Source: Nitrospirota bacterium
GTDB taxonomy: Bacteria; Nitrospirota; Thermodesulfovibrionia; Thermodesulfovibrionales; SM23-35
Assembly: GCA_014859105.1 (NCBI GenBank)
Contig: JACUUX010000003.1
Coordinates: 1 to 64,000, forward strand
Direction of reading: 5' to 3'
DNA: 64,000 nt
Shown here: piece by piece, positions 28,468 to 51,309 of the stretch
How the letters are laid out: each line of letters opens with the position of its first letter
Numbering within the stretch: position 1 is the first letter of the stretch
Notes under the pieces: generated by a model
What the model was told of the DNA's origin: nothing
Seen by the model: the letters and a program-made list of their open reading frames with translations, nothing else
Database searches by the model: none
Position numbers and translations under genes: made by a program

Positions 28468-29172
28468 CTAAATTCCAAGATTTCTGATGTTAGAGTATAA
28501 ATCCCATAAATTTATTTCTTTAATCCTAAAAGCTGTTCCTCGATTTCTCACTGAGCCATTTTCTTTAAGATGCATTCTCAAATCAATACCAACTTTGCCG
28601 GACCTAAAGGCATTTATAAAATTTTGTGGTATAGGATCGGTAAGTATATATGCCTCGTTATAGAAAAACTCTTCCTCACCATTTGTATTAAATCGTCTTT
28701 CTGCAATAACAAAGAGCACTCTGCTTAGCTTTGACATTAATTTTCCGACCATAATATAAACATCCCAGGTAGCTAATATATTTCCGGCCTCATCTATTAA
28801 ATTAACCTCATTGTTATGCTCATCAATTAGAAGACTTAACCCTTGAGATATTTGTCTCCCGTAATAGACGGTGTTTTTTAAAGCTTTTCTACCAGAATTA
28901 TCAATATAGCCATATCTTTCTATTAATTCCTTTTGAGGTATATTCCAAACCCCTCGGTTGAAGGTAAATAATGTTACAAGAGAAGTGGAATCTTTTCGCG
29001 TCGTTTTAATCTCCACTCTTCCACCCAGATCCGGGATCGGAATATTAGTTTCGGACAGCCCCATTTTTTGCTCAAAAGTATGTCCTACCCCAGTAGAACT
29101 CTTTCGGATCGTTGGAACATATCCCAAAGCTTTTAAAGCACGAAGTCTGCGTTCTATTTCTCTCAGAGTCAT
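28468..29172 (-). CDS. MvaI/BcnI-family type II restriction endonuclease
   Basis: This 234-residue enzyme resembles the monomeric MvaI/BcnI family, which cuts CCWGG or CCSGG. The family-like TGVGHTFEQKMGLSE (27-41) holds Glu34. The PD-(D/E)XK active site is visible as Asp48 followed by Glu54 and Lys56 in IPDLGGRVEIKTTRKD. Length and a helical N-terminus (REIERRLRALKALGYVP) also match. It overlaps the methyltransferase gene by 4 bases, so the pair forms a type II restriction-modification operon with the methylase translated first. The actual recognition site cannot be read from the sequence. Confidence 0.85.
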   Translation of the reverse strand: MTLREIERRLRALKALGYVPTIRKSSTGVGHTFEQKMGLSETNIPIPDLGGRVEIKTTRKDSTSLVTLFTFNRGVWNIPQKELIERYGYIDNSGRKALKNTVYYGRQISQGLSLLIDEHNNEVNLIDEAGNILATWDVYIMVGKLMSKLSRVLFVIAERRFNTNGEEEFFYNEAYILTDPIPQNFINAFRSGKVGIDLRMHLKENGSVRNRGTAFRIKEINLWDLYSNIRNLGI

Positions 29173-30605
29173 TTAATCTTCTCCATTATCACAATATATT
29201 CTTCAGTCATTGTTGAACCTAATACTCCAGTTCTATTACTAGGGCTATTTTTTGATGGCATTCTTTTATTAGGAATTTTACGAGTGATTGTCTCTATATG
29301 TCTAAAGCAATTAGATTCACCAAAATCTGCCACTATCTCATCTGTTGGCAATTGAATTCCTTTTACCGTTCTATTCCCCACCACCATGCATAAAAAACCG
29401 CCCTTTTTCATAATTCGGCTCAATTCAATAAAACATTTGTTCAAGTCGATATAGAATGCCATAACTTCTCTTGCTCTCTTTTTATCAATTCGGGATATCA
29501 TATCTAAGGCGTATCTCAAGTTTGGAGAGCTATATCCTAAGTGAAGATTATTGGTATCTAATCGCCCTCCCAATGATCGATTATCTGTATCTAAATCTTT
29601 CCCTTCAAATCCTAACCACTGCAAAGAGAGTCTTGAAAACTGTCCATAAGCAACAGTGGTTTTTGAATCGCCATATGGCGGAGAGGTTACGACTATATCA
29701 ATAGTGCTATCCTTAATACTTGTTCTATTGCGGGTATCTTCATTTAGAATATTTACTTGAGTTTTACTGTCTCTAAATTGTCTCCATAAATCGGTCATTC
29801 CAGCGATACTAAGTGCAGCTCTTTCTTTGAATATCCCTATAACATCAGGGCTGAAATTATTCAACTTTTCATCTTCAATGCGGTATAATTTGAACTCACC
29901 ATTCCTTGAATTTGAGGATGCTCTTACAGTAAAACTGAATACCACTCTGAAAAAATCTTTTATCTTCCTATCTTTAATTGAATCTATAGCCTTTCTTAAT
30001 GCAGCGAGCTTAAATATAACGTCCTTTTTAAACCAATACCCAATATTAAAAAAATTATAATTATCTACCTTCTTTATACTGGATACTTTTTTAAAGATTC
30101 TTTCTAATTCATTATGTAAAAACTTATAGTTAAGAGGGCTTGTTTTAACATTACTTATGAGAAGTGAAAGAGGGTTTATATCAATACCGCATGAATTACA
30201 GCCTCTTGTGAATGCTTCCAACAAAACAGAACCAGACCCGCAAAATGGGTCTAAGACAACCGCTTTGGGGTTTGCATACATATCAATAAGTCTTCCTGCT
30301 ACTTGCGGTATCATCATTGCAGGGTAAGGGTGAATAGAGTGTGTATATGCTCGTTTGTTATCTTCGGCATAATTCCAGCTTGGATCATACTTTTTATTTC
30401 GTGTCGAATCTTGCCATAAATGTTGTATGCTGGTTAACGAATCGTTCTCTATATTATCATCGATTTGGGATATTCCTAAGCGATTGTAAAAAGCTAACTG
30501 TTCTCTCAGCACAAGACAATGATCTATTTCTGAACAATTTGTACAGTTTTCTAAAGTAGCTATACACAAAGTCTGTTTAGGTTCTGCATATGTTTTAGCA
30601 CTCAT
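29169..30605 (-). CDS. Type II DNA methyltransferase (SPPY class)
   Basis: This 478-residue amino-methyltransferase protects sites of the adjacent endonuclease. Numbering from a longer in-frame start at 30620, DPFCGSG (124-130) binds S-adenosylmethionine, with the preceding HSIHPYPAMMIPQVAGRLI as motif X. TSPPYGDSKTT (312-322) is the catalytic loop, typical of N4-cytosine or N6-adenine methylases. With an MvaI/BcnI-like partner, N4-methylcytosine is likely. The stretch between motifs (about 165 residues) may hold target recognition. Several cysteines near the N-terminus (CIATLENCTNCSEIDHC) look like a metal site. The ATG at 30605 has AAAGGG six bases upstream. Confidence 0.88.
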   Translation of the reverse strand: MSAKTYAEPKQTLCIATLENCTNCSEIDHCLVLREQLAFYNRLGISQIDDNIENDSLTSIQHLWQDSTRNKKYDPSWNYAEDNKRAYTHSIHPYPAMMIPQVAGRLIDMYANPKAVVLDPFCGSGSVLLEAFTRGCNSCGIDINPLSLLISNVKTSPLNYKFLHNELERIFKKVSSIKKVDNYNFFNIGYWFKKDVIFKLAALRKAIDSIKDRKIKDFFRVVFSFTVRASSNSRNGEFKLYRIEDEKLNNFSPDVIGIFKERAALSIAGMTDLWRQFRDSKTQVNILNEDTRNRTSIKDSTIDIVVTSPPYGDSKTTVAYGQFSRLSLQWLGFEGKDLDTDNRSLGGRLDTNNLHLGYSSPNLRYALDMISRIDKKRAREVMAFYIDLNKCFIELSRIMKKGGFLCMVVGNRTVKGIQLPTDEIVADFGESNCFRHIETITRKIPNKRMPSKNSPSNRTGVLGSTMTEEYIVIMEKIK

Positions 30606-30629
30606 ACTTTGCCCTTTCATCTCCCAGTT

Positions 30630-44597: not shown

Positions 44598-45209
44598 TCA
44601 TTTTTCTATTTTGAATTTTAAATGTTTAATTGCTTCCATTATACCGTTGCTTATCCTCTCCTTGAATTGTTTATCTGTTTCCTCCTTATCAATCTCTATA
44701 GGGTTGCCGAATATTACTGTTATTTTTACAGGTCTTAAAAACTTTGCGCCTACAGGAAGGGCTTTCTCTGTTCCTTTAATAAGTGTTGGAACAACAGGCA
44801 TTCTGCTTATAGCTACAATTAAGCCTACACCTCTCTTTGCATCAAGCACTCTACCATCAACGCTCCGGCCTCCCTCTGGAAACATAACAATGAGTTCCCC
44901 TTGCTTCAGTCTATGGATAGCCTCTTTTATTGTAGATGCCTGAGGTCTATCACGTTTTACGGGAAAAGAGAATGACCTGACAAATGCGCCCAGCAGAAGG
45001 ATTTTGAAAAGTCCTTCCCTGGCCATATAAGTCGCACGCCTTTTTAAGGCCACCCCAATAACAAGCGGGTCCAGATAGCTTACATGATTTGCAGCAACAA
45101 TAACACCGCCTGTCAGTGGAACGTTTTCGGCACCAATGACCTCGATCCTGTTGAATATTTTAAAAAAAATAAATAAGATTGCTCTGCAAATTAAATAAAT
45201 AAAACTCAA
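44598..45209 (-). CDS. plsC: 1-acyl-sn-glycerol-3-phosphate acyltransferase
   Basis: PlsC adds the second acyl chain to make phosphatidic acid at the membrane. This 203-residue protein has an N-terminal hydrophobic segment and the family motifs NHVSYLDPLVIG (HX4D), FPVKRDR and MFPEGGRSVDG. The start is TTG overlapping the cmk stop by 4 bases, consistent with translational coupling. The C-terminal KHLKFKIEK is AT-rich and lies beside a low-complexity spacer before ispH. Confidence 0.92.
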   Translation of the reverse strand: MSFIYLICRAILFIFFKIFNRIEVIGAENVPLTGGVIVAANHVSYLDPLVIGVALKRRATYMAREGLFKILLLGAFVRSFSFPVKRDRPQASTIKEAIHRLKQGELIVMFPEGGRSVDGRVLDAKRGVGLIVAISRMPVVPTLIKGTEKALPVGAKFLRPVKITVIFGNPIEIDKEETDKQFKERISNGIMEAIKHLKFKIEK

Positions 45210-45862
45210 GGGTCAGTTCTTAAAAAATCGAGTATTTTTTTAAAAACCTGCTCTACAGAGAGATTCGAAGAATCCACCAGAAAAGCCTCCGGCGCTGCCT
45301 TAAGTGGCGCTATATCACGGTTAGCATCCCTTTTATCTCTTTCTAAAATGTTTTTTCTTGCCTCATCCATTGTAATGTCAATTCCCTTTTCCTTGAATTG
45401 AAAATAGCGTCTCCTCGCCCTTTCTTCGTCAGATGCATACAGGAAAATCTTTTTCTGAGCGTGCGGAAAAACGACTGTTGTCGTATCTCTTCCTTCAATA
45501 ACCAGGTCATTATTCAAAGCTGCATTCCTTTGAAGGTCAAGCAAAAAGTCCCTGACAATTCTTTTAGCAGAAAAGACGGAAGAATAATGGTCTATCTCGG
45601 TAGTCCTTATCTCCTCCGAAACGTCTCTGCCGTTAAGAAACACCTTCCCGTTGTTGAATCCGATAACAGTATTGTCAAAAACCCTTTTTATTTTATCATC
45701 ATTGTCTTCTGGTGCCACCTTTTTTTCTCTCAATGCAATCGCAATAGCCCTGTATAATGCACCTGTGTCGAGATAACCGAAACCAAGCTCTTTTGCAAGT
45801 AGTTTTGCAATGGTAGTTTTTCCAGAGCCTGACGGGCCATCTATGGCAATCACCTTACCCAT
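45206..45862 (-). CDS. cmk: Cytidylate kinase
   Basis: Cmk phosphorylates CMP and dCMP with ATP. This 218-residue enzyme has the P-loop GPSGSGKTTIAK near the start, GYLDTGALYRAIA, VIEGRDTTTVVFPHA and the lid region DEERARRRYFQF. ATG at 45862 is chosen over an upstream TTG. In many bacteria aroA lies directly upstream of cmk; here about 4 kb of accessory genes intervene. The operon continues into plsC, ispH, rpsA and sppA. Confidence 0.95.
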   Translation of the reverse strand: MGKVIAIDGPSGSGKTTIAKLLAKELGFGYLDTGALYRAIAIALREKKVAPEDNDDKIKRVFDNTVIGFNNGKVFLNGRDVSEEIRTTEIDHYSSVFSAKRIVRDFLLDLQRNAALNNDLVIEGRDTTTVVFPHAQKKIFLYASDEERARRRYFQFKEKGIDITMDEARKNILERDKRDANRDIAPLKAAPEAFLVDSSNLSVEQVFKKILDFLRTDP

Positions 45863-45911
45863 TGTTAATTTCAATTTGTAAAGTGTAAAAATTTAATGAA
45901 ATAAGCAAGCA

Positions 45912-46274
45912 TTACCTGGATATTCTGAGTCTACCATCTTGAAATACACAAAATCTGTTCTGCATTTTATCCTCATACTCATGTAATATCTTTTTTATAA
46001 GCTCTACTTTTTCATTACCATTTGCATCTTCAATTCTTAAAATTAAGACACCTGCATGCGACTTACCAGATTTAAATACAAGCTCGCCAAAATCTTTATC
46101 CATGGTAATTACCATACGGGATTCAGATATAGCTATCTTAAGTATCTCCGTATCTTTTGCCTTCGGGTTAATACTTCTTACGGTTTTTATGTCATATCCG
46201 TTTTTTTCCAGCCATTCTTCTAACTTTTTTCCCACTCCAAGATCAACGAGAAATCTCAATTTACTTTCAGGCAT
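45912..46274 (-). CDS. DUF5615 PIN-like protein, putative toxin
   Basis: This 120-residue protein has a PIN-like fold: LRFLVDLGVGKKLEEWLEKN at the N-terminus and VITMDKDFGELVF in the middle supply acidic metal-binding residues, matching DUF5615. Such proteins are usually paired with DUF433 proteins, as here, and are thought to be toxin nucleases. In the first motif the usual second Asp/Asn after VD is replaced (VDLGV), so activity is not certain. It starts 6 bases after the DUF433 gene. Confidence 0.78.
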   Translation of the reverse strand: MPESKLRFLVDLGVGKKLEEWLEKNGYDIKTVRSINPKAKDTEILKIAISESRMVITMDKDFGELVFKSGKSHAGVLILRIEDANGNEKVELIKKILHEYEDKMQNRFCVFQDGRLRISR

Positions 46275-46280
46275 TAATAT

Positions 46281-46532
46281 TTACTCTACATTTAAAGCAA
46301 AGACCTGTTCTTCGCTAATACGTTCAGAGGCATACAGTAGGACTGCCTGAATATCCTCTTTTTCGATTTCAGGGTAATCCTCTAATAACTCATCAACTGT
46401 AACACCACCTGCAAGGGCTTTTAATATTTGCTCCACTGTTATTCTTAATCCTCTAATTGTTGGCTTACCAACCATTACAGCGGGGTCAACTGTGATGCGC
46501 TTTAATAAATCGGTAGCGTGTTGTTTATACAT
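46281..46532 (-). CDS. DUF433 protein, putative antitoxin
   Basis: This 83-residue protein contains the DUF433 signature: RITVDPAVMVGKPTIRGLRI, then VEQILKALAGGVTVDELLED and a YPEIEKEDIQAVL helix. These small helix-turn-helix-like proteins accompany PIN-like DUF5615 partners. The two genes form a 6-base-spaced operon in the accessory block between cmk and aroA. Confidence 0.82.
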   Translation of the reverse strand: MYKQHATDLLKRITVDPAVMVGKPTIRGLRITVEQILKALAGGVTVDELLEDYPEIEKEDIQAVLLYASERISEEQVFALNVE

Positions 46533-46770
46533 TTTCTAAGTACCTCCTCTTCAGACTTAAATTCCTTGTAACCGGATCTTTAATCTTGTCACTCTTTTTC
46601 AAAATATCAGATTTTCATGGGAAAACCCTTTCTTCGGTAAAGATTGCTAAACGATTAAATTCTACCTTAATTTAAAAATATATCTCAATTTCTATGAAAG
46701 ACCCTAAAATATTCCTGGCCAAAATTCAAAAATAAGATAACATCGGTCTTCAAAAACAAAGAGGAAGAAA

Positions 46771-46968
46771 TTACCACTTAGGTGCTCGACCTTTTAAATA
46801 ATAGTTACCGCTATCATATTCAAGAAAGCCTTCGCTAACAAGTTCTTCTATAGCATCTTTAGCGATATCTAATTCTTTTGCTGCAAAAAGATTGTCCTTT
46901 ATAAGTTCACTCCATCTTCGAGTAAAAGAAAAATGAGCGTTTCTTTGGCCATCTTGAAAAAATCGCAA
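46771..46968 (-). CDS. Small winged-helix-like protein, possibly incomplete
   Basis: A 65-residue frame starts at a TTG (46968) and looks like a winged helix: AKELDIAKDAIEELVSEGFL then EYDSGNYYLKG. The coding-like sequence extends further upstream (KKTKEQKRILKDRI) to a stop just before it, with no ATG, so the true start is unclear or the gene is a fragment. It lies 92 bases downstream of the large ATPase-DUF3883 gene on the same strand and may be a regulator of that block. Confidence 0.45.
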   Translation of the reverse strand: MRFFQDGQRNAHFSFTRRWSELIKDNLFAAKELDIAKDAIEELVSEGFLEYDSGNYYLKGRAPKW

Positions 46969-47060
46969 TATGCGATCTTTTAGTATTCTCTTTTGTTCTT
47001 TGGTCTTTTTGACTTAAAATCTAAATATTACATCTTTTATAAAATTGAAGCAACTCATGC

Positions 47061-49502
47061 CTAACCCTTATGTGCAAGCCACTTATTCTTTGGAACTGTA
47101 GCACGCTCAACAGGGTCACAGATATCTTTAACCTTAGTAATTTCTTTATATCTTACTTTATCGGGTTGATTTGGAAGATTATAAACGCAGATTAAAACAT
47201 AATCTTTATCTTGTACTGCCTTCCAGTGATTGGGGCCTAACGGTACATCTTCTGGTTCACTCATACCTTTCACTTCAAAGACTTTTTCACAATGACCCTT
47301 ACACTCGTAATCATAGCCTAACTTATCATGCTGGGTTACACGAGAAACGCTGTCGCGATGTTCACTCTCACGCAGTCTTTCTTCAAATATTGCGTATGCT
47401 GTTGTTTCGATCAGACTTCTATCTTTCTCTTTATTAAATCCATGAACACCCCACTTTTCGAAATATTCACTTATTCTATCCATATTCTGTTCTACGAGAT
47501 AGTTTTTATGAACAGGTTGATATCCAGGGAGCAGATAAGCTTTCCAAAGTGGTAACCAGTCCAATGGTGCTCTTGGAACAAACAAGTGTTTAGTTTCTAT
47601 AAAAGTTCCATCCTGTGCAATTAATCTATTTATTATGTAATCACCCCCTTCATTAATAATTAAAAGTGTGGCTTGAATAATATCGTTGAGAGCAAACTCA
47701 AGCTCATCATGGGAGCCTTTAAAAGTGTTAATTTTTTCCACTAATTCTTTAACAACTGTTTGCTTATTTATTTCTTTAAGACCACAACTCTTAAGACTTT
47801 CAACAGCATCTCTATTTCTTGCAATTTCTGGATGTAATAGCTTTTTGTCTTCTGGAATGACTTGTTTCAATAAGTTAGGTATTTGATCTAAACTTATTGC
47901 GATATTTATTACTTGATCTGCTGTATATAGCTCTCTGTCTTCGGCGAGTACGAATAAATTGTTAGATAAAGGTCTGTCTTTTGGTGCAAAGTCTTTAGGC
48001 AGGATATATATCTTGGCTAACTTTTGTGGTTTGTTTTTAAGATTATCCAAAATTTTCTTTTTACCAAAAATATTATATTTTTTTATCCTATCTCCCTCGC
48101 TTACTCTGGACCAGAGATGATCTTTTATACTATGCTTCACAATTTTTTTATTCGTTATTTCTTCTAACATGTTTAAGTCTTCTTCTCCAAAGATTTGTTC
48201 AATATCTTCATCCACAATCGTCAGTTCTTCAAGCTTACGCCTATTTCCATGACGATCAAAATAACAACTCTCGGTTTCAAGAAAAGTCTTGATAGGATCC
48301 CTTAATCTGCTATTCCAGAATTTTGCACTTTCACCTGAAAGGGAACCAAATGGTAAATCCTGAAGAAGTCTGGCTGGAAAGGACTCCCATTGTTCATGAT
48401 ATAAAAATATTTCTTTTATTATTTCTTTGAAAAATTCAAATATTTTATCAGATATCCAATGATTCCACTTAGCACTATAGCTAATTAACTCTCGTCCAGG
48501 TAGTGGAATAAAATCTCCAAAAATCCCAAATGGTAAACCAGTCTGTTCACCTTCTATCGGCAGAAAAGAATAAACACCCGCAAGCTTGCCATATAAAGGC
48601 TGAATATTCTTCGTATTGTCTAACTTAAAAACTACCCCTATCTCCCGCTTCGGAATTTCGGAACGACGAACACGCTCTGTTTCCTCATCTTTTTTGATCT
48701 CTTCGGGGATTGGAATAACCTTACGGAAAACTAAATACCAGTCTTCTTCGCTATACCGCTGTCCTACTATCTGCTTTTTTAAGATGATAACCTCTTTTTT
48801 ACCAACGGGAAGGGATTCAGAGGATTCAATTTCCTTTGTGATAGTAAAAGATAATGAAGTGGTCTGTATTTCTATGGCTTTAACATATTCCAATTGAAGA
48901 ATTGCTTCTTTAGGAAAATCAGGGCCTATAAGAAATTCCTTGATTTTTTGCAATATCTCTTGTCCTTTTGCACTTGCCATCGGAACATAAAAGCCAGTAG
49001 TGTAGCCCTCTGGCAAATCTACAGGATGGTTTTCAATCGGCAAAATTTCCCAAGGCCATTTTGAGAGAGGAACCCCTTGCCTTTTAGAATCTTCCCAGTG
49101 TTGCTTATCAAACTTAAAATGATAATCACCGGAGTGTATGTCTATACGATTGGTAATATGGAATATGGATTTAAAACCGATGCCAATGTAGCCACGAAAG
49201 CCCAAGGAAGGGAGTTTAAAGGAATTTACATCGCAAATGGCGTAGAAATCGTGATTATCAAATACCTTGCCGTTATTGAGAATCCATAACGAGTCTTGCT
49301 GAAGATGGATGGAGAATCTTTTTACATCGGCTCTATCAGCATCTTTTGTAGCATCTTCTGCATTCTGGAGAAACTCCAAAATCCAGTGTTTCGGAGAAGG
49401 GAATACAGACTCAAGAGTTTTTAGCATATTTACATAGCCACCCCACAGAGGGGTTTTTATCTGTGCCAGGAGATTTTGCAGGTGCTCTGAGACAATGCTC
49501 AT
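47061..49502 (-). CDS. Sacsin-like GHKL ATPase with C-terminal DUF3883
   Basis: This 813-residue protein has an HSP90-like ATPase domain at the N-terminus: ILEFLQNAEDATKDADRADV (41-60, N box with Asp) and GFRGYIGIGFKSIF (101-114, glycine-rich lid). This is the arrangement of the sacsin/NO VEIN group. A long central region of unknown fold follows. The C-terminus (about 720-813) matches DUF3883, with Asp731, Glu743 and Lys745 in GYDYEC and VFEVKG arranged like a PD-(D/E)XK nuclease. An ATPase joined to a nuclease-like domain, in an accessory block, suggests defence against foreign DNA, but this is not proven. Confidence 0.8.
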   Translation of the reverse strand: MSIVSEHLQNLLAQIKTPLWGGYVNMLKTLESVFPSPKHWILEFLQNAEDATKDADRADVKRFSIHLQQDSLWILNNGKVFDNHDFYAICDVNSFKLPSLGFRGYIGIGFKSIFHITNRIDIHSGDYHFKFDKQHWEDSKRQGVPLSKWPWEILPIENHPVDLPEGYTTGFYVPMASAKGQEILQKIKEFLIGPDFPKEAILQLEYVKAIEIQTTSLSFTITKEIESSESLPVGKKEVIILKKQIVGQRYSEEDWYLVFRKVIPIPEEIKKDEETERVRRSEIPKREIGVVFKLDNTKNIQPLYGKLAGVYSFLPIEGEQTGLPFGIFGDFIPLPGRELISYSAKWNHWISDKIFEFFKEIIKEIFLYHEQWESFPARLLQDLPFGSLSGESAKFWNSRLRDPIKTFLETESCYFDRHGNRRKLEELTIVDEDIEQIFGEEDLNMLEEITNKKIVKHSIKDHLWSRVSEGDRIKKYNIFGKKKILDNLKNKPQKLAKIYILPKDFAPKDRPLSNNLFVLAEDRELYTADQVINIAISLDQIPNLLKQVIPEDKKLLHPEIARNRDAVESLKSCGLKEINKQTVVKELVEKINTFKGSHDELEFALNDIIQATLLIINEGGDYIINRLIAQDGTFIETKHLFVPRAPLDWLPLWKAYLLPGYQPVHKNYLVEQNMDRISEYFEKWGVHGFNKEKDRSLIETTAYAIFEERLRESEHRDSVSRVTQHDKLGYDYECKGHCEKVFEVKGMSEPEDVPLGPNHWKAVQDKDYVLICVYNLPNQPDKVRYKEITKVKDICDPVERATVPKNKWLAHKG

Positions 49503-49511
49503 TTATTTTAC

Positions 49512-49778
49512 CTATTTATTAATTTTGATTAGATGGAAATATGGTTTGCCTCCAAAGAGCATACCTTTTATTTGTGACTTATTTACAATTACACTTGATG
49601 GTCGAAACTCTAAGATTATTTTTTCTACATTACCTTTCATCTCCTCATAAATATGGTCTATACGGTCTATCACTTTACAAATTTGGTTACCAAAAGTTTC
49701 TACATTTCCATTATAGTGTAATTCTAAATAAGGAAATGGATCATCCTTATATTTGAAGATTACCAAAATCTTCTTCAT
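49512..49778 (-). CDS. Small hypothetical protein upstream of the ATPase-DUF3883 gene
   Basis: This 88-residue protein begins MKKILVIFKYKDDPFPYLEL and ends in KPYFHLIKINK; the body has alternating strands and a helix (VIDRIDHIYEEMKGNVEK). The ATG at 49778 has GGGAG upstream; an extension of eight residues is possible. It ends 9 bases before the ATPase gene, so the two are probably co-transcribed. No family is recognised. Confidence 0.55.
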   Translation of the reverse strand: MKKILVIFKYKDDPFPYLELHYNGNVETFGNQICKVIDRIDHIYEEMKGNVEKIILEFRPSSVIVNKSQIKGMLFGGKPYFHLIKINK

Positions 49779-49868
49779 AATAGCTAATCTCCCTGTTACC
49801 AATTTCTTTATGGTCTTATTTTCTCTTCAGCCTAGCTGTTTTGGGGTTCATGACCATTGATTCTATCA

Positions 49869-49893
49869 GATGCTGAAACAAGTTCAGCATGAC
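49869..49893. repeat. Short hairpin repeat shared with 1959-1983
   Basis: GATGCTGAA, five loop bases, TTCAGCATGAC differs from 1959-1983 only in two loop bases. It lies between aroA and the accessory block, where a boundary could be expected. Confidence 0.6.
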
Positions 49894-49947
49894 ATCTTGC
49901 ACAGTTTGCTTTTTTTAAGAATTCTTAATTTGCAATCTGCACTTTCA

Positions 49948-51309
49948 TTATGCTGTTAGCCTCCTCAAAATCTCAAAAAAGCCCGGAAAAGAGATGTTAA
50001 CTGATGAAACATCACTAATAACAGTCTCCCCCTCTGCAATCAAAGCTGCGATGCTCAGGGCCATTGCAATCCTGTGATCTCCATGGCTTTCAAGAAATGC
50101 CCCCTTAAGTTTCGTTTTGCCTGTGATACTCAGGCCATCCTCAAATTCCTCTATTTCAGCACCCATCTTTTTTAGCTCTGTTGCCATGCTCTTGATTCTA
50201 TCTGATTCTTTTACCCTGAGTTCCTCAGCACCTCTGATAGTTGTATTACCTATAGCCTGGGTTGCTGCAACACATAACACGGGAAATTCATCAATTAATA
50301 CAGGAATTTTTTCTTCTGTAATATTTACGGGGTTTAGCTCCACAGTGCTTCTACATTTAATATCTGCAACAGGTTCACCGGATAAGTTTCTTATGTTATA
50401 AATCTCGATATCAGCACCCATCTCTTTGAGCACACTCAGAAGTCCTGTCCTTGTAGGATTAATTCCCACCCCTTGTATTGTGATATTAGAACCTTCTATT
50501 AATAATGCACCCACTATAAAAAATGCAGCAGATGAGAAATCTCCCGGCACATGAACCTCTGTTCCTCTTAATTCCGGTAATCCTTTTATCTTAATACTTA
50601 ACCCTTCAACTTTTATTTCGGCTCCAAAAGCCGGCAGCATCCTTTCTGTATGGTCCCTTGATTTTACAGGTTCTATCACTTCTGTTTCTCCGTCTGCATA
50701 GAGACCGGCGAGCAATATTGCTGATTTTACCTGTGCACTGGCAATCGGCATTATGTATTTAATTGCATGTAACATTTCCCCTTTTATTGCTATTGGAGGA
50801 AATCTATCACCGTCTCGAGCCATTATTCCTGCCCCCATCTTCCTTAAAGGGGCGATAACCCTTCCCATCGGTCTTGCTCTTAAGGATTCATCGCCTGTAA
50901 GTACAGAGAGAAACGGATTCCCTGATAGAATACCTGAAAGCATTCTTATCGTAGTCCCTGAATTTCCGCAATCAATCACGTTATAAGGTTCTTTCAGGCC
51001 ATATAGTCCTTTCCCGTTGATTATAAGTTCGGAGGCGGGAGTTAGGAGCTCGGAGCTTTCACCCCCTCCCTTACCCTCCTCCCTCGAGGGGGAGGGATGG
51101 GTGGGGGTGACTTCTGTAATTTCAACACCAAGCATCCTCATAGCATTCACGGTGCTTTTTGTATCTTCTGCCCTTAGAAAGTTCTTTATAATGCTTTTTC
51201 CGTTTGAGAGGGACGAGAATATTACTGCCCTGTGGGATATGGATTTATCAGGGGTAGGAGAAAATTTGCCTTTAAACTTCCTTGCTTTCCTGAGTTCAAT
51301 TCTGTTCAA
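49948..51309 (-). CDS. aroA: 3-phosphoshikimate 1-carboxyvinyltransferase with insert
   Basis: AroA (EPSP synthase) joins phosphoenolpyruvate to shikimate-3-phosphate. The 453-residue protein is about 25 residues longer than usual. Signatures are DKSISHRAVIFSSL, IDCGNSGTTIRMLSGIL, VPGDFSSAAFF and RVKESDRI. Residues 68-93 (THPSPSREEGKGGGESS core) fill what is normally a short loop before the ELIINGKGLYGLKEP strand and come from a G/C-rich palindrome. The start is TTG with GAGG seven bases upstream, overlapping tyrA by 14 bases. It is the last gene of the aromatic operon. Confidence 0.95.
   Translation of the reverse strand: MNRIELRKARKFKGKFSPTPDKSISHRAVIFSSLSNGKSIIKNFLRAEDTKSTVNAMRMLGVEITEVTPTHPSPSREEGKGGGESSELLTPASELIINGKGLYGLKEPYNVIDCGNSGTTIRMLSGILSGNPFLSVLTGDESLRARPMGRVIAPLRKMGAGIMARDGDRFPPIAIKGEMLHAIKYIMPIASAQVKSAILLAGLYADGETEVIEPVKSRDHTERMLPAFGAEIKVEGLSIKIKGLPELRGTEVHVPGDFSSAAFFIVGALLIEGSNITIQGVGINPTRTGLLSVLKEMGADIEIYNIRNLSGEPVADIKCRSTVELNPVNITEEKIPVLIDEFPVLCVAATQAIGNTTIRGAEELRVKESDRIKSMATELKKMGAEIEEFEDGLSITGKTKLKGAFLESHGDHRIAMALSIAALIAEGETVISDVSSVNISFPGFFEILRRLTA
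51031..51108. repeat. G/C-rich palindrome inside aroA
   Basis: CACCCCCTCCCTTACCCTCC near 51060 and GGAGGGATGGGTGGGGGTG near 51091 form an imperfect hairpin around CCCTCGAGGG. A short tandem motif (GGAGTTAGGAGCTCGGAGCT) adjoins it. All is read in frame in aroA as a Pro/Ser/Gly/Glu-rich stretch. Confidence 0.75.

Follow-up and report, generated by a model that had tools for sequence, protein, structure and literature searches.

The gene at positions 47061–49502 (minus strand) of the window, that is, of the whole 64,000-nucleotide stretch of Nitrospirota DNA that was analysed, most likely encodes a small single-gene relative of the Tiamat protein TmtA. Its product carries a GHKL ATPase domain at the N-terminus and a DUF3883 domain, predicted to be a nuclease, at the C-terminus, and the gene probably constitutes an anti-phage (or anti-plasmid) system of one gene that was acquired by horizontal transfer and acts as an ATP-gated DNA nuclease. 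This reading is considered the most likely because the slot occupied by the gene, between aroA and cmk, carries other anti-virus systems in related bacteria. The kinship of this compact form with Tiamat and the hotspot character of the aroA–cmk slot are both new here and are the most informative points of the analysis.

The reading frame noticed in the first-pass annotation of this DNA is real and intact; it begins with ATG, encodes 813 aa without internal stop, and is present in a single copy in its 3.16-Mb genome. The gene and its parts are the following:

47061–49502, minus strand: main gene, compact GHKL–DUF3883 protein (Tiamat-like), 813 aa, with full-length homologues of 44–54% identity.
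48831–49457, minus strand: GHKL (sacsin/Hsp90-type) ATP-binding domain, about residues 16–224 (Pfam SACS, NCBIfam, model).
49353–49376, minus strand: N box, E43–D50, with putative catalytic Glu and Mg-binding Asn.
49170–49193, minus strand: G2 box, G104–K111 (GYIGIGFK), with the ATP lid glycines.
48081–48830, minus strand: transducer or Hsp90-middle-like region, about residues 225–474, with the DF-x4-GR337 loop (model, conservation).
47421–48080, minus strand: variable linker, about residues 475–694 (the profile of the long relatives aligns at both ends only).
47064–47420, minus strand: predicted DUF3883/NOV_C PD-(D/E)xK nuclease domain, about residues 695–813, with D731, E743, and K745 (Pfam, model).

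The N-terminal part is matched by the Pfam SACS (sacsin ATPase) profile (residues 27–134, E 1.2e-8, above the gathering cut-off), and a sacsin-type ATP-binding domain is also recognized by NCBIfam. The three GHKL boxes tested (N, G1, and G2) are present. In the 25 compact members compared, of about 800 aa, E43, Q46, N47, and D50 of the N box and G104, G107, G109, and K111 of the G2 box are invariant (25/25), and the earlier statement that the ATP-binding motifs are intact is correct for these two boxes; it needs a footnote for the G1 box, because the Asp that usually contacts adenine is replaced by Asn76, as in nearly all 25 members (His in three), so that the box takes the form N-[ND]-G. In an AlphaFold2 model of the protein (pLDDT 85), Hsp90 is matched over residues 16–474 (Z 16.1, 372 residues, rmsd 6.6); the model also matches the sacsin SR1 structure 5v44 (Z 14.3, 177 residues, rmsd 3.4), and TopoVI-B, MORC3, and GyrB match about residues 16–384 (Z 14–15). 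Residues 16–474 thus comprise a sacsin/Hsp90-type GHKL ATPase with its transducer. Within the latter, D330, F331, and R337 of the DF-x4-GR loop are invariant in the 25 compact members, and the loop resembles the catalytic-Arg loop described in Hsp90 and sacsin (PMC9880540), to which it may be equivalent.

At the other end of the protein, the Pfam NOV_C/DUF3883 profile matches residues 699–785 (E 5.2e-6, above the gathering cut-off). When the C-terminal 224 residues were modelled alone (pLDDT 90.8, pTM 0.82), an alpha-beta-beta-beta-alpha-beta nuclease core was obtained with D731 and E743/K745 on its central strands (strands 143–145 and 151–157, carrying D142 and E154/K156 in the numbering of the model). 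In structure this model comes closest to Hjc (Z 10.0, 107 residues, 2.7 Å), followed by Eco15I (Z 9.1) and the SPARDA nuclease (Z 9.0), each of which is a PD-(D/E)xK enzyme. Fold and D...ExK arrangement are therefore those of the PD-(D/E)xK superfamily, and the domain is predicted to be a nuclease of this type. The first-pass annotation had recognised a GHKL ATPase and, fused to it, a nuclease-like DUF3883 domain, and had singled out Glu743 and Lys745 for mutation; this description is borne out, including its numbering, and the Asp of the first motif can be placed at D731. Loss of the catalytic residues from the family had been named as grounds for giving it up; instead, an alignment of 28 C-termini, long Tiamat-like proteins included, shows no variation at D, E, and K, and the triad is near-invariant in the family. 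Three further residues that lie between D731 and the ExK motif, C734, H737, and C738 (CxxHC), are invariant solely among the five proteins of the close clade, and might form a metal site.

The earlier annotation could not match this protein to a named system, and this has now been corrected. The TmtA profiles of PADLOC match all 25 compact members tested, and profile PDLC03972 matches residues 26–593 of the main protein with an E of 3.2e-55. The match spans positions 29–578 of the 1302 in the profile (42%), to which the shared C-terminus is added. The long relatives (1473–1513 aa) match PDLC03972 end to end and have the same C-terminal nuclease domain; in L065, L066, L081, and L091, for example, the match runs to the end of the profile and the DUF3883 domain is found there. 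When a profile of long relatives (1471 positions) is aligned to the compact proteins, it is matched at its two ends alone, and some 650 central residues (about positions 700–1340) are absent from the compact forms. The main protein has, therefore, the GHKL profile match and the C-terminal DUF3883 domain of Tiamat, but not its full-length coverage; because of the missing centre it has been named Tiamat-like, and not Tiamat proper.

A mechanism can be proposed from these domains. The protein would act as a homodimer, in which the GHKL domain binds and hydrolyses ATP and, through the transducer region, closes a clamp similar to those of Hsp90, TopoVI-B, and MORC. The central region might sense some product of the infection as the trigger, and closure of the clamp would then license the PD-(D/E)xK domain to cut DNA, either of the phage or of the host, with an antiviral effect.

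Concerning the distribution of the gene, single-sequence pattern scans of genome contigs and viral contigs yielded no match, and an alignment-based scan of GTDB genomes yielded 365 relatives, of which the best 80 were retained. Four of these best 80 are full-length and 44–54% identical to the main protein, and they come from MAGs of Euryarchaeota (L024), "Deltaproteobacteria" (L025), Marinifilum (L026), and Chloroflexi (L029). In a quick tree, the four group with the window protein in a single clade (SH-aLRT 100%), whose five members belong to five phyla and to two domains, archaea among them. Significant matches were found in 15 of 296 genomes of the window's own phylum, the other 14 being distant and mostly long sacsin-like proteins, and in one of 20 genomes of its family, namely that of the window itself. 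The GC content of the gene is 36.6% vs. 39.7–40.5% in its flanks. Since its nearest kin are in four other phyla and its presence is patchy, the gene is considered to be horizontally mobile and acquired.

The genes surrounding the relatives offer a mixed picture. The four closest homologues stand alone and not in clear defence islands; most of the genes around them are housekeeping or unrecognised ones, and a search of their immediate neighbours gave no indication of a defence role. Many other compact relatives are likewise solitary among mostly housekeeping genes. This situation, together with two relatives near Mre11/SMC-like genes (L028 and L032) and with the likeness of the folds to Hsp90/sacsin and to Holliday-junction resolvases, speaks for a DNA repair or stress protein, either a chaperone of the sacsin/Hsp90 kind that carries a nuclease tail or an Hjc-like recombination nuclease, in charge of ordinary cell maintenance. 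Such a role is nevertheless unlikely in view of the patchy presence and the transfer across phyla described above, and of the recent insert position of the gene, at which defence genes are the alternative cargo. In the wider family, PADLOC found defence families among the 78 neighbours analysed, a figure of raw occurrence and not of statistical enrichment. Archaeal compact relatives are near pAgo/PIWI genes in L034 (3308–5772) and in L042 (4273–9307), the latter with a helicase too, which could be a conserved association. One compact relative adjoins a ThsB-like TIR gene (L037/L039), several copies on haloarchaeal plasmids adjoin DISARM/Hma-like helicase and DUF1156 methyltransferase genes (L019, L020, and L052), and another lies on a contig that is listed as viral (L104). 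The expectation that relatives would occur in defence contexts is thus supported by these neighbours and by the aroA–cmk slot; the opposite finding, of homologues in housekeeping contexts only, is approached by the four closest ones, and it is the slot in the window and the wider family that point to defence. In two Desulfurococcales loci, the compact gene is followed by a similar-looking gene for a protein of 201–205 aa (L031, 4465–5070; L053, 12813–13430), for which no PADLOC match was found in L053.

The strongest new evidence for the defence reading comes from the position of the gene. In the order to which the window belongs, aroA and cmk directly abut (gap below 200 bp) in 54 of the 65 genomes that have both genes on the same contig; in the window about 4.1 kb separates them, and the interval contains the main gene and the following elements:

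45206–45874: cmk.
45875–49947: insert between aroA and cmk, absent in most relatives.
45912–46274, minus strand: DUF5615 PIN-like protein, toxin-like (Pfam DUF5615 E 6.6e-23, Mut7-C RNase 8e-7).
46281–46532, minus strand: DUF433 protein, antitoxin-like (Pfam DUF433 E 2.7e-24).
46771–46968, minus strand: 65-aa orphan ORF downstream of the main gene, without family match or relative.
49512–49778, minus strand: 88-aa orphan ORF with ATG at 49778 (open frame 49512–49802), without family match.
49948–51309: aroA.

In four members of the same bacterial family (G246, G286, G299, and G301), DUF433 is at the same position of the slot beside differing cargo, and in the last three it is accompanied by DUF5615; the DUF433 protein is part of the inserted segment and not of the nuclease system. 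In G246, an operon similar to BREX type 4/Ssp (L128, 1–10495; BrxP, SspB-, SspC-, and SspBCD-like, PglZ- and BrxL-type genes) lies between aroA and the same DUF433 gene, which begins after it. G301 has genes for a type III-like methyltransferase and for a ResIII protein beside this pair and cmk; in G286, a methyltransferase is present and the pieces of the G301-type arrangement are split over two contigs; and G299 has BrxP and BrxL remnants and the pair. A more distant genome, G067, carries an Mrr protein and other toxin–antitoxin genes. The slot is therefore a recurrent hotspot for defence cargo, and in this poorly studied lineage it could be mined for more systems. It is not exclusive to defence, because EttA, RNA/DNA repair genes, and small ORFs occupy it in other genomes. 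Between the genera concerned, the DUF5615 protein is 87–89% identical, vs. 62–72% for cmk, which suggests its recent transfer. The DUF433/DUF5615 pair (45912–46532, minus strand) also occurs by itself at other places in the order, with DUF433 proteins 69–95% identical (L128, L130, L131, and L164–L171), and it is possibly an addiction module that stabilises the inserts. Elsewhere in the window, a type II restriction-modification pair is encoded (28468–30620, minus strand):

28468–29172, minus strand: MvaI/BcnI-family endonuclease (Pfam E 2.5e-36).
29169–30620, minus strand: N4/N6-type DNA methylase, beside the endonuclease.

A slot that gathers toxin–antitoxin pairs, remnants such as those of G299, and non-defence genes, and in which the small ORFs next to the main gene are orphans, could also be a general-purpose insertion site with the main gene as a passenger or decaying gene devoid of present function. 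This is very unlikely, given that the frame of 813 aa is uninterrupted, that it can be aligned over its full length with homologues of 44–54% identity, and that it has kept every catalytic residue.

The two small ORFs had been regarded as potential components of a three-gene system. Both exist, and the 88-aa ORF, which stops 9 bases short of the main gene, may be co-transcribed with it, the 65-aa ORF being possibly a remnant. However, searches of Pfam, PADLOC, and NCBIfam gave no family match for either of them, and no convincing relative was found beside homologues of the main gene or on plasmids; in 175 genomes of the order, the upstream ORF had one weak match, interrupted by a stop (E 0.006, 29% identity), and the downstream one had none. 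The three-gene proposal is thus unsupported, because neither ORF occurs with any relative of the main gene. The distant relatives L018, L022, and L023 do have an overlapping small upstream gene, as would be expected if the main gene formed a true multi-gene system with one or both of its flanking ORFs, but these upstream genes are unlike one another and unlike the 88-aa ORF, and such a system is highly improbable here. Separately, two Micrarchaeota MAGs share the same two small genes around the compact gene (L041, 1007–1642 and 4184–4546; L046, 3911–4537 and 7079–7441), coding for 208–211 aa upstream and 120 aa downstream. A three-gene arrangement is possible in this sub-clade, and it may represent a single event because the two compact proteins are nearly identical.

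The defence reading has, on the other hand, several observations against it, namely the solitary closest homologues, the non-defence cargo of the slot, the 42% coverage of the TmtA profile, and the Asn of the G1 box. On a broader scale, we put forward tentatively that the GHKL–DUF3883 proteins of about 800 aa might constitute a single-gene defence family of their own, self-sufficient and distributed over bacteria and archaea, and that in the window's bacterial family they might be one of several interchangeable aroA–cmk cargoes held by the DUF433/DUF5615 addiction module; if so, the large central part of Tiamat would be dispensable.

Among the known systems, a precedent for this design is VcSduA, a Shedu-type protein in which a GHKL ATPase is joined to another PD-(D/E)xK nuclease and which protects against phages (PMC12137116). 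It is likewise a single gene whose ATPase controls a C-terminal nuclease, but this nuclease is DUF4263, whereas that of the window protein is DUF3883. Membership of Shedu was considered for the main protein and rejected, since no DUF4263 match was obtained with Pfam (E up to 1). Another precedent is the prediction of DUF3883 as a restriction-endonuclease domain in SNF2 helicase–DUF3883 proteins of restriction-like operons (PMC3710099), which share this domain with the window protein and differ in the N-terminal partner. A 2026 survey of BREX systems makes no mention of the GHKL–DUF3883 family. The PD-T4-1 and HmaA profiles of PADLOC also match the DUF3883 domain of the relatives, their N-terminal partners being unlike that of the window protein. 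The plant protein NO VEIN, from which the Pfam name of the C-terminal domain (PF13020) derives, combines a GHKL domain with the NOV_C domain, but it is a large developmental protein. Sacsin SR repeats and Hsp90 share the ATP-binding fold and the middle-like region, which in the window protein contains the invariant R337; they are eukaryotic chaperones without a nuclease domain, unlike the protein described here. Finally, Tiamat, which occurs in island hotspots of Pseudomonas (PMC12629846) and which a 2023 survey still counted among the systems whose mechanism is unknown (PMC10482375), has in the same order an N-terminal sacsin-type GHKL domain and a C-terminal DUF3883 domain of PD-(D/E)xK type, and differs in length (1063–1782 for the TmtA profiles vs. 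813 aa), as judged from PADLOC profiles and secondary papers. The clear Hsp90-like ATPase and PD-(D/E)xK nuclease of the compact homologue predict for it an ATP-gated DNA nuclease mechanism, which is open to tests with point mutants in a protein whose size suits structural work.
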